Shown one piece after another: positions 29,201-32,029 of a stretch of 32,029 nt of DNA. The stretch is from a virus. The notes under the pieces were generated by a model, which saw nothing but the letters and a program-made list of their open reading frames with translations, had not been told where the DNA came from and made no database searches. The stretch is from IMG/VR virus record IMGVR_UViG_3300012920_000144, positions 1 through 32,029 of that record; one strand, 5' to 3'. Both the position numbers and the translations under genes were made by a program. Each line of letters begins with the position of its first letter. Within the stretch, counting starts at the first letter, position 1.

Positions 29201-29880
29201 GTGACGTTCTTGCTGCCTTTGACACAGAATCTGCTATTGTTCGTGACGCAAGGCAGACAGAGGGTCTGACCAGTGGTGATAGGTTTGGAAGTGCGGTAAA
29301 GAATACTGTGATGAAAGACCTGCCGGGGCTGGCTACTAAACTGCCTCAAATTGAAAGTCCTACACGTGAAGGGCCGGTGATCCGTCAGGGGCCACTGGAA
29401 GGGCAGACAACAGGTGTCCGTCGTGAGATGGTGCAGAATGTTATCGAAGCAGAGACTGAACGTCTAGGCATCAAACCATTCAGGCTTGCCCCAAGCACAG
29501 GTGATAAGACTGCAGATGCTTTGATTAAGGGTGAACTTGGTACGCTGCTTGAAAGTGAGTTAGATAACTTTATAAAGAGTGACAGGTATCAGAACATGAG
29601 TACTGCCAAACAGCGTGCTAGCCTGAAAACACGTATTTCGTTCTATCGCTCAAGGGCGAAGAACGTGGCTGAGATTGAAGAGCGTTACAAGACGGAAGGA
29701 TATACACCGTTTGACCGTGCTACGTTTGCTAAACTGACAGACGACCAGACACGTATAGCAGACGAGTACTACATGCAAAAGTATGGTATGACTGTGCTGG
29801 AAAAACAAATGGAAGAACCCGACGTTAATCACCTTATGACAGGCACTAACATCGGGCGTCTGTTAAGTAAGGGTGACTAG
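26251..29880 (+). CDS. Large internal virion (ejection) protein
   Basis: A 1209-aa protein, the largest here, positioned like T7 gp16. A short duplication opens it: FDPYAFLYADQE at residues 5-16 and FDPYSFLYADQE at 38-49. Next comes a conserved charged block (YMDMLREYQEKRFGED, then EFEWNSIDLGQQINWIRSAD). Glycine/alanine-rich hydrophobic segments (about 190-215, KARKIVAGGLAAEAGLL region, and AALLGAGGTLLFGAPAL near 280) could insert in a membrane. Long helical regions follow, then a conserved centre with RALMVSMPGTTVRNVLTGG and RFMVNAMQFQFQYSPLS. I see no lytic transglycosylase motif; the lysozyme activity is instead on the 5555 gene. It probably enters the cell with the DNA. The stop overlaps the convergent operon at CTAG. 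Confidence 0.8.
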   Translation: MAKPFDPYAFLYADQEPKEEVEQEEVVSPPVEQPDEPFDPYSFLYADQESDLPAPEDLLPKPPKQTDDPEIDEKQTYEQMSADTDYMDMLREYQEKRFGEDGKQRDDETDEEYLRRFVSDVREFEWNSIDLGQQINWIRSADEEDRIKFGYLYSELDNLQSFMEEGTTSAYVGAFRDIGKALVTDPLSYLGFGAGKVATIAGTRTITQILKQQGKSAAVKELAKQAGKKRARKIVAGGLAAEAGLLTVENLKQQELEGLAGIRVDEEGNPLPKSYGEAALLGAGGTLLFGAPALRGLRADKMTTNARKGLIRKTKLAKELNSRNKAIKDKAKKEAGQRVAEAGKNAPKVFDVDEGRKVLDKLGEIDANATELAQIEFNTQLMKRVGRVVQNVVEDLAESGKLGEVVDVDLKASEVIGQIVKDSLDRTTGKSSREIAEQTEKLLVGDDTTKGILDKLDKDFSGDVLQAAISRAGLTNKQFVDAFGASYTNAGQYLQTASGVGKILKKVREIDPKLAKEIIPNSEMDKSAGMMGGLYDFLKRVDAERRALMVSMPGTTVRNVLTGGMRLGFEGTANMIDASIYQMAKGISAAATGRSTFAEAFSAQDIVRESFGRLNRLRDTVGTANLADDLLAHNPQLASRMDRSLQDLGEERSQELLGVTKWLNGLNMAQDIMFRRAVFTDHIDNKLRRAGIIVDNPTKVGQFKSLEELAASGKQIPADILADGVDEALYFTFSRMPKAGGGKPGDSVGNMFVKITEGLPMVPGIGTGSHPFSRFMVNAMQFQFQYSPLSVMPAIQRTVVGLQAGKAAKAAAAMGDEALSAAKMREAKTAYQAASKNLSQGIVGSAALYAAIKYRAENQDTNFWLSKNDDGSKSDLRPLFPLVPYLAIADMIVKAGLTEQATLGTIEQPEVYSSSDTKEIIEAVTGIQSRTGTSNFVLENAEEVVKGLIGAPSDQITAQRLNEIMGGYVGSLVGGVTTPARVVRDVLAAFDTESAIVRDARQTEGLTSGDRFGSAVKNTVMKDLPGLATKLPQIESPTREGPVIRQGPLEGQTTGVRREMVQNVIEAETERLGIKPFRLAPSTGDKTADALIKGELGTLLESELDNFIKSDRYQNMSTAKQRASLKTRISFYRSRAKNVAEIEERYKTEGYTPFDRATFAKLTDDQTRIADEYYMQKYGMTVLEKQMEEPDVNHLMTGTNIGRLLSKGD

Positions 29881-30128
29881 ACGTACTCCAATATTCCCAC
29901 CGCAAGGATGGCAGCGGAGATAGCATTCAACACGATGATTGATCTGTCGTGCCACATGAATCCTACCCATGCCCACAATCCCATTCCAATGACGCCAAGC
30001 ACCATGTCCATAAGATGTGAGTAGTCCGCTGCTCGTATCACGATTGCTGTTAGTATAAAAAAGCTGGCAGTCCACTTGACATACCACGTGATATCCTTAT
30101 AAGGCGTTACCTTATTAACTGTCTTCAT
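29877..30128 (-). CDS. Small 3-TM membrane protein next to Na/Pi gene
   Basis: An 83-aa membrane protein with three hydrophobic helices, about residues 17-36 (VKWTASFFILTAIVI), 40-57 (MVLGVIGMGLWAWVGF) and 62-82 (SIIVLNAISAAILAVGIL), separated by short polar turns that include HDRS. Similar tiny three-helix proteins are frequent in marine phages, with no known function. It starts 1 nt after the Na/Pi gene stop and is the last gene of the operon, so the two are likely made together. It has no QSSS or GANIG motif and so is not the missing half of the transporter. Its TAG overlaps the TAG of the gene on the other strand. Confidence 0.8.
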   Translation of the reverse strand: MKTVNKVTPYKDITWYVKWTASFFILTAIVIRAADYSHLMDMVLGVIGMGLWAWVGFMWHDRSIIVLNAISAAILAVGILEYV

Positions 30129-30129
30129 G

Positions 30130-30606
30130 TCAGAACCTACCTAGCCATCGTGCTATGTGTGACACAAACGGTAACAAAGTAGCTGCCATAAACAAGTTCA
30201 CACCTGTGTGTGCCATTGCAATACGCAACGTATCTCCTTTAGGCATACCGTCTGACACAAACAAACCTGCCAGCCAAATTGTACCTGTTGTACCTATGTT
30301 CGCGCCTAACACTGCGGCGATGGCTGCTGGTAAAGGCAAGGCACCAGAGGCAACCAGTGCAATAATAGCTGTGGTGGACAGGCTGGACGATTGCCACAGC
30401 AGTGTCATTATGATACCACCTGCAAACATGTACAACGGGTTGCCCAAGAACCATGAAAGATGTTCTATGTTGCCCATAGATTTCATGCCACCAGAGAATG
30501 TCTTCAAGCCTACGTAGAAGATAATTAAGCCTACTATGGCTGTTATCACAGGGTTTCCTAAGTCCATCTTACTTACTCTCTTCCACAGTTTCTTTCCCTC
30601 CGTCAC
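30130..30606 (-). CDS. Half-size Na+/phosphate cotransporter
   Basis: A 158-aa inner-membrane protein of the Na_Pi_cotrans (PNaS/NptA, SLC34-like) family. It contains one complete half-repeat: helix NPVITAIVGLIIFYVGLKTF (about 18-37), then GGIIMTLLWQSSSLSTTAI with the substrate/ion motif QSSS (72-75), LGANIGTTGT (99-108), and the closing IAMAHTGVNLFMAATLLPF. Full-length members carry two such inverted halves; here the gene stops after one. It should import phosphate with sodium if it assembles as a dimer. The GTG start at 30606 overlaps the MazG stop (GTGA); ATG 30567 is the alternative, just before the first helix. Phosphate supply for phage DNA synthesis is the likely benefit (inference). 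Confidence 0.85.
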   Translation of the reverse strand: MTEGKKLWKRVSKMDLGNPVITAIVGLIIFYVGLKTFSGGMKSMGNIEHLSWFLGNPLYMFAGGIIMTLLWQSSSLSTTAIIALVASGALPLPAAIAAVLGANIGTTGTIWLAGLFVSDGMPKGDTLRIAMAHTGVNLFMAATLLPFVSHIARWLGRF

Positions 30607-30986
30607 CTGTTATCACCTGATCCACTTATTTTCCCACGCTTGTGTCTGTCCGCTAGTTTCTCTAAGTTCTTCTCCATGATGTGTCCAAGGTTCATCTCTA
30701 GTTCTTCTGCTAGTACAGCACAGTACCACAACACATCACCAATCTCGTATCCAATCTCAATACGCTTGGCAAGGTACTCGTCCTTGGCTGCACCGTCACG
30801 GATGAACTTCTTCACTTTGTTTGCAATCTCTCCTGCCTCTCCGGTCAGGCCAAGAGTAAGATACTCCATAGCCTGTTTCTTTGGGAAGATTGCTGTCTCA
30901 CACGCGCGAGACTGATACTCTGCTGCGGTAATACTACTCAACTGCCTCTCCTTCATCCACTGTTTAGCTTCTAGTTCCAAGTTCAT
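30603..30986 (-). CDS. mazG: MazG-like nucleotide pyrophosphohydrolase
   Basis: A 127-aa all-alpha NTP-PPase of the MazG type, converting (d)NTPs or related nucleotides to monophosphate plus pyrophosphate with Mg2+. The metal-binding pattern is complete: Glu50 and Glu53 in GLTGEAGEIANKVKK, Glu81 and Asp84 in YEIGDVLWY. Length is typical of single-domain phage MazG. The physiological substrate in phages is debated: ppGpp reduction was proposed, while biochemical work on a cyanophage enzyme favoured dNTPs. GGAGA lies 7 nt before the ATG. It overlaps the upstream small gene by 23 nt and the transporter start by 4 nt, so all are one coupled operon with RNR at the upstream end. Confidence 0.92.
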   Translation of the reverse strand: MNLELEAKQWMKERQLSSITAAEYQSRACETAIFPKKQAMEYLTLGLTGEAGEIANKVKKFIRDGAAKDEYLAKRIEIGYEIGDVLWYCAVLAEELEMNLGHIMEKNLEKLADRHKRGKISGSGDNR

Positions 30987-31497: not shown

Positions 31498-32029
31498 CTA
31501 TGCTGCGGCAATGTCAACTACCTCACACACTCCAGCAGTACAGGCTAACTCACGACCACCTGACGTAGTGTCTTCCTTCTCGTACTCACGAAGCAATTCC
31601 CAGTTTACTTTCTTTGGCATTTGCTTCAGCATCTCACCGTACTCTTCAACAGTGCAGTCCTGATAAGGTGCTTGCTTGTACGTATGCTCACTGAATGGCA
31701 GGAAGCTAATGCCTGATACCTCATCAAAGTGTTCGTATACCCACGCTCCTACTTCCATCCACTCATGCTCTTTCACAGAGATGGTGACAGATGGCTTGTG
31801 TTCACACCAGTGACGCTGATACAAGAGCCACAGTTCAAGCTGTTCAATGGCAGACATGTCGAACCTAGTGACTGCACTGTGTGGTGACTTCATTGGAAAG
31901 CTGAACACTGTTGTGCTGTCTGGCTTCATCACATCTGGCTCTGCTGGGATGCCTTCAGAGACAAGGAACTGCGTGATGGGGTCTTTGTTATCCCCACGTA
32001 CCGTGCGAATGTAGTACGGGTTGTGACGA
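31498..32029 (-). CDS. nrdJ: Class II ribonucleotide reductase, C-terminal part
   Basis: C-terminal 176 residues of an adenosylcobalamin-dependent ribonucleotide reductase, which makes deoxynucleotides from ribonucleotides without oxygen or a second subunit. The frame is open through to the window edge, so the start and the central active-site region lie outside. Visible hallmarks: TTVFSFPMKSP, then MSAIEQLELWLLYQRHWCEHK, VTISVKEHEWMEVGAWVYEH, SGISFLPFSEHTYKQAPYQD, and the C-terminal CTAGVC cysteine pair, spaced five residues apart as in the Lactobacillus monomeric enzyme, where it relays electrons from thioredoxin to the active site. An apparent GTG/ATG at about 31927-31932 is internal. It opens the visible part of the coupled operon. 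Confidence 0.93.
   Translation of the reverse strand, partial: RHNPYYIRTVRGDNKDPITQFLVSEGIPAEPDVMKPDSTTVFSFPMKSPHSAVTRFDMSAIEQLELWLLYQRHWCEHKPSVTISVKEHEWMEVGAWVYEHFDEVSGISFLPFSEHTYKQAPYQDCTVEEYGEMLKQMPKKVNWELLREYEKEDTTSGGRELACTAGVCEVVDIAAA

Follow-up and report, generated by a model that had tools for sequence, protein, structure and literature searches.

A complete single-repeat Na/Pi cotransporter-family gene with a candidate internal translation start in a marine podovirus

Background

Transporters with inverted repeats are thought to have arisen from ancestors with a single repeat, two copies of which paired head to tail in the membrane, and living single-repeat forms are known for few such families. 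A viral gene that encodes just a single Na/Pi cotransporter-family repeat raises the question whether such a half is a genuine gene and, if so, how it could work. The gene studied here lies in a window of 32,029 bases, which is the whole of the single virus record IMGVR_UViG_3300012920_000144. An initial annotation, made from the sequence, had proposed a minimal, virus-encoded Na/Pi transporter that works as a homodimer whose copies insert in opposite orientations, as in EmrE. A common phage protein consisting of exactly one Na/Pi repeat would be a living single-repeat form, small enough for testing, and for a phage phosphate gene that has been published already, the mode of working of a full transporter could not be assumed.

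The presence of PF02690 in phages of the HMO-2011 type is already known. Qin et al. 2022 (PMC9038755) found it in eight subgroup I genomes of these phages and, in the parts of that report considered here, the product is called a sodium-dependent phosphate transport protein and is taken as an ordinary Na/Pi cotransporter. Phage group and Pfam family are thus the same as for the gene described below, whereas those parts of the report do not mention half size, topology, an internal start or any spread of the gene to myovirus-like contigs. Our literature search found no report of a half-size Na/Pi protein. What is new here is a candidate internal start at residue 14, preceded by a Shine-Dalgarno signal stronger than synonymous codons predict.

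Results and discussion

Gene content of the locus

The window is a marine podovirus of the HMO-2011 type: genes for terminase, portal and coat were named by PHROGs, and Puniceispirillum phage HMO-2011 matches the searched part of it at about 75% nucleotide identity over 64%. In HMO-2011 the structural genes come straight after MazG. The gene of interest, hereafter called the half-transporter, is listed with its neighbours and features in Table 1. As had been annotated, its start and the stop of MazG share the bases GTGA, the frame is complete from GTG to TGA, and within its 158 codons the QSSS and GANIGTT motifs are each found once.

Table 1. Coordinates of the half-transporter, its predicted elements and its neighbours in the window
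Feature	Position	Strand	Remarks
Single-repeat Na/Pi cotransporter-family gene (half-transporter)	30130..30606	-	158 aa, GTG start, TGA stop included
QSSS motif	30382..30393	-	residues 72-75; sole copy in half-transporter
GANIGTT motif	30286..30306	-	residues 101-107; sole copy in half-transporter
TM1 (predicted)	30475..30552	-	residues 19-44, AF2 model m2aac9c992be7
Re-entrant hairpin (predicted)	30346..30438	-	residues 57-87; AF2, analogy with NaPi-II models (PMC6325988)
TM2 (predicted)	30256..30333	-	residues 92-117, AF2; carries GANIGTT
TM3 and C-terminal helix (predicted)	30139..30234	-	residues 125-156, AF2
Basic N-terminal segment of long product	30568..30606	-	residues 1-13, five K/R
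Shine-Dalgarno-like AGGTGA before long (GTG) start	30613..30618	-	duplex energy -4.8 kcal/mol
Shine-Dalgarno-like GGAAGAGAG before internal start	30576..30584	-	-4.5 kcal/mol
Proposed internal start codon ATG	30565..30567	-	residue 14
MazG gene	30603..30986	-	PF03819 3.7e-9, phrog_229 1.3e-33; 4-base overlap with half-transporter start
DUF6552 (PF20189) gene	29877..30128	-	downstream neighbour of half-transporter, Pfam match; no second repeat

Pfam recognises one PF02690 (Na_Pi_cotrans) stretch in the product, at residues 29-140 (58.1 bits, E 1.3e-15, cut-off 29.1). This is the only PF02690 match in the record, so that a profile search of its whole length did not turn up the second repeat that would have spoken against the annotated half transporter. 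The NCBIfam cut-offs for Na/Pi symporters are missed, narrowly for NF037997 (48 against 50 bits) and widely for TIGR00704 (42.2 against 210.1) and TIGR01013 (34.5 against 306.15), and the two repeats of the solved SLC34A2 (9z60) match the half-transporter about equally, with 41.0 and 36.8 bits. As its chain does not hold two inverted repeats, we file the protein as a PF02690 member and not as an SLC34/NptA transporter. Codon differences from relatives lie far more at third than at first and second positions (23 against 1 in the comparison with L002, 67 against 13 with L065), which identifies the half-transporter as a real gene; its dN/dS against relatives, about 0.01-0.04, indicates strong purifying selection. 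We consider it almost certain that it is a genuine and complete half-size member of the Na/Pi family.

In close relatives that lack the half-transporter, MazG and DUF6552 overlap directly and leave a clean empty site, and in the window, L281 and L287 the half-transporter sits exactly between these two genes; it is thus an inserted cassette rather than one half of a split gene. The split-gene reading was rejected on DUF6552 itself, which carries no family motif, as annotated, and which follows MazG directly, with no half-transporter, in L276, L277, L279, L284 and others; DUF6552 is not the missing half. Most half-transporter copies elsewhere have no DUF6552. With respect to positions 29877-30986 of the window, the relatives with the empty site (L276, L284, L286, L289 and L292-L298) form a presence/absence polymorphism. 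Across half-transporter loci the neighbouring genes fall into 252 clusters, the largest with 27 of 810 genes, and since none is constant, a phage-encoded partner is not evident.

Distribution among viruses and bacteria

A scan of IMG/VR gave 549 stretches with a relative. All 242 viral copies that were read, which correspond to 134 distinct frames and include some contigs counted twice, are single-repeat, with 145-202 aa from stop to stop and two QSSS motifs in none. QSSS is kept in 133 of the 134 distinct frames and GAN[IVL]GTT in every one, a near-invariance that continued use of the binding site would lead one to expect, and the PF02690 profile matches 58/58 scanned relatives. When 31 records were searched whole (30 viral ones of 28-177 kb, podo- and myovirus-like, and the MAG holding L083), PF02690 was matched exactly once in each, by a frame of 152-188 aa, and the window record adds a further single match. 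Records of IMG/VR may be incomplete pieces of genomes. The half-transporter also occurs, in varied contexts, in large contigs that are presumably myovirus-like, a label given from their size and from recognised neighbour sequences, and the protein is 66-99% identical between very different phages. Half size is therefore the rule and not a recent truncation. The collection of phage homologues that had been suggested as a check thus bears out a virus-encoded single-repeat form, a complete PF02690 protein that is neither split nor freshly truncated.

No PF02690 frame in 300 Chloroflexota genomes is shorter than 355 aa, apart from a weak 267-aa match and a frame of 165 aa in the MAG of L083. L083 (PAAV01000031.1), a contig in this Chloroflexi MAG, encodes a half-transporter protein 99% identical to that of viral contig L110 and is probably a binned virus. 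In view of the full-size Chloroflexota frames and of this identity, the half form looks viral, with marine alphaproteobacterial genomes lying outside the sample. In tblastn searches the half form had no match among isolated phages and plasmids. Candidates for a double-repeat phage form were rejected: a bacterial double-repeat profile found contigs L269-L273 in IMG/VR, the flanks of which look bacterial, and double-repeat matches in GenBank phages were unannotated records that at first sight look bacterial. L269-L273 carry YjbB-like double-repeat genes beside bacterial-looking genes and are likely bacterial or host flank sequence.

Predicted fold and charge distribution

The half-transporter was modelled by AlphaFold2 (AF2) with 58 viral sequences, giving a best model with pLDDT 85 and other models from 78 to 54, the five versions disagreeing with one another. 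Next to the elements of Table 1, the model has a short N-terminal helix and a further helix at residues 48-54, and its hairpin is formed by residues 57-71 and 74-87, with QSSS near the tip. A fold search with this monomer gave no PDB match at E <= 0.001 and nothing usable in BFVD, for which reason just the helix order is used here. This predicted order is similar to that within a single repeat of NaPi-II models for which VcINDY was the template (PMC6325988). SLC34, NptA and YjbB share with the half-transporter the PF02690 repeat, the QSSS and GANIGTT motifs and the predicted TM-hairpin-TM-TM order, but they contain two inverted repeats where the half-transporter has one, and the latter has no PhoU domain. 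Its N and C termini are predicted on opposite sides of the membrane, as an invertible unit needs.

With sides assigned from the AF2 helices, on which all charge counts given here depend, the full-length product of the window is biased towards N-in, with a K/R value of +3. Of 130 distinct viral sequences, 115 have values of +2 to +8 (N-in) and 15 values of -1 to -4; 0 and +1 do not occur. EmrE has no positive-inside bias, and an N-terminal RRR has been used to force it N-in (PMC4560821); Fluc singletons have balanced Arg/Lys (PMC3755343). Being biased where EmrE and the Fluc singletons are balanced, the full-length chain fails the usual test for dual topology. The count of Lys and Arg in loops that the initial annotation had advised thus gave +3 in the window and no value of 0 or +1 in the family. 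Its dual-topology proposal is supported in part only: the simple EmrE form finds no support, since this protein and most relatives have a basic N-terminus giving +2 to +8, while the single-repeat, complete, virus-encoded protein stands.

Most distinct viral sequences have 4-7 basic residues at the N-terminus. Fourteen of the 130 have a short N-terminus in which K/R occurs once at most, several of these having no room for the long form, and such short N-termini are scattered over several places in the tree. The sign flips of the bias correspond to gain or loss of the basic N-terminus. In the myovirus-like group the bias is mostly positive when counted from a conserved upstream start and -3 to -4 from an internal Met. 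K35 and K42 may have a functional rather than a topological role.

Bacterial YjbB-like proteins, taken as a control, have a bias of -6 to -8 in repeat 1 (18/19) and a mostly positive one in repeat 2, and NptA-like proteins have the reverse charge order of their two repeats. This opposite repeat order of YjbB-like and NptA-like proteins (L090-L108 against L109, L345 and L346) looks as if the pair had been assembled both ways in evolution. In a tree of repeats the viral halves lean to the repeat-2 side, with weak support and long branches.

A candidate internal translation start

Of 120 distinct variants, 113 have Met at residue 14, although the flanking residues are variable, and several of the natural short forms start at this very place. 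In a clade with T for M, a TTG preceded by AGGAG stands one codon upstream; the other variants without Met14 have a TTG or GTG start close by. Pairing of the upstream bases with the 16S tail was compared with the pairing expected from synonymous codon choice. Before the internal start its energy is -5.38 against a synonymous null of -3.76 in 45 representatives (z -7.7, descriptive and no strict probability, as are the other z values, because the viral sequences are related). In 32 representatives of less than 80% identity, a set chosen differently, it is -4.91 against -2.99 (s.d. 0.28), none of 3000 samples being as low. Other Met codons, used as negative controls, gave z values from -1.8 to +5.6, and none of 25 evenly spaced positions fell below -2.3. 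Upstream of Met44 (30475-30477, z +5.6) and Met67 (30406-30408, z +3.7) the codons apparently avoid Shine-Dalgarno pairing.

Without selection, about three times more nonsynonymous than synonymous differences are expected. Over all pairs, the upstream extension has 2338 synonymous and 1990 nonsynonymous codon differences in one viral group, and 1818 and 1716 in the other; these counts indicate that it is constrained as protein in both. Given this constraint and the excess of pairing over the synonymous null, the long product and the internal start both appear to be under selection. From these sequence signals, it is more likely than not that the internal start at Met14 is used. A product beginning there would be without the five K/R of the N-terminus, and its bias would be a modest -2. 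Two products would not be obligatory in every lineage, as the short-only members without room for the long form indicate.

Possible modes of assembly

The mechanism that we propose departs from one gene with two putative translation starts 13 codons apart. The long product, with its basic N-terminus and bias of +3, would be expected N-in and the short one, with neither that N-terminus nor a positive bias (-2), N-out; from these opposite biases, opposite orientations are expected. Long and short products would then pair antiparallel and rebuild the inverted repeat pair of full Na/Pi transporters, and in infected cells the putative transporter so formed would move phosphate across the inner membrane of the host. 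That the half-transporter works as such an antiparallel self-pair is a conjecture that we hold tentatively, at somewhat less than an even chance. The conserved motifs, the occurrence of one copy per record and the lack of any phage-encoded partner that is constant agree with it, and the opposite charge bias of the paired bacterial repeats may, by analogy, be counted in its favour. The fuller claim, that the choice between two starts of one gene sets opposite orientations and so yields a complete inverted-repeat Na/Pi symporter, would be less likely, though a possibility of some weight. If true, it would be a new route to opposite topologies from one gene, without duplication or balanced charge.

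In EmrE and Fluc/CrcB, small single-gene proteins, inverted repeats come about by antiparallel pairing of the chains (PMC4560821, PMC3755343), which for the half-transporter is only proposed. Like them, it is small and encoded by one gene, and with one copy per record it has no paralogue of opposite bias; they have balanced Arg/Lys, in contrast to its long product, which is unbalanced and whose gene has a second start signal. Products from two nearby starts that differ in N-terminal positive charge occur in the lambda holin, S105/S107. The holin is, however, a lysis protein without sequence kinship to the half-transporter, the two products of which are only predicted.

Four other explanations were weighed against start-site-directed pairing. 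A protein fixed N-in might pair with, replace half of, or alter a full-length host Na/Pi transporter, giving a hybrid or regulated unit. Most sequences are biased N-in, the viral halves lie, with weak support, on the side of repeat 2, which in bacterial YjbB-like proteins is mostly N-in as well, and a constant phage-encoded partner is absent; yet a protein 66-99% identical in very different phages implies different hosts, to which a matching host partner would be hard to fit, and 15 of 130 sequences have the opposite bias. We consider this explanation rather unlikely. It is marginally ahead of an oligomer of single orientation, a parallel dimer or larger, acting as a channel or other non-symport device or on the host, for instance by signalling or by blocking later phages. 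The unbalanced charge would suit such an oligomer, and small membrane proteins are often parallel oligomers; a plain pore, however, would have no need of the symporter family's motifs for substrate and sodium, which are almost always kept, and a comparison with defence models, a weak test, gave no match. This explanation, too, is unlikely.

The classical dual-topology homodimer, in which the full-length chain inserts both ways like EmrE and the internal start has no role, is improbable. A single gene with one half repeat and an odd number of spans is what it would predict, and the bias changes sign within the family, neither orientation signal being fixed; but no distinct sequence has a bias of 0 or +1, most carry 4-7 basic N-terminal residues, and the Shine-Dalgarno signal at the internal start is left unexplained. 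That the half-transporter is a decaying gene, a split gene or a sequencing artefact, for which half the usual length is the sole point, is hardly credible given half size in 242/242 copies, purifying selection, one copy per record and the empty site in relatives.

Other genes of the window

The DUF6552 product, of 83 aa, is predicted to form a three-helix membrane bundle (pLDDT 88), and related genes are present in Pelagibacter phages HTVC008M and Mosig. It was considered as a SemiSWEET half-transporter and rejected, the likeness being weak (NCBIfam 19.2 against 80 bits, Foldseek E 0.86). An open reading frame at 31498-31932 on the minus strand matches just the C-terminal part of phage ribonucleotide reductase (phrog_367, positions 568-699); as it lies near the edge of the record, it is probably the last part of a gene that is truncated there.
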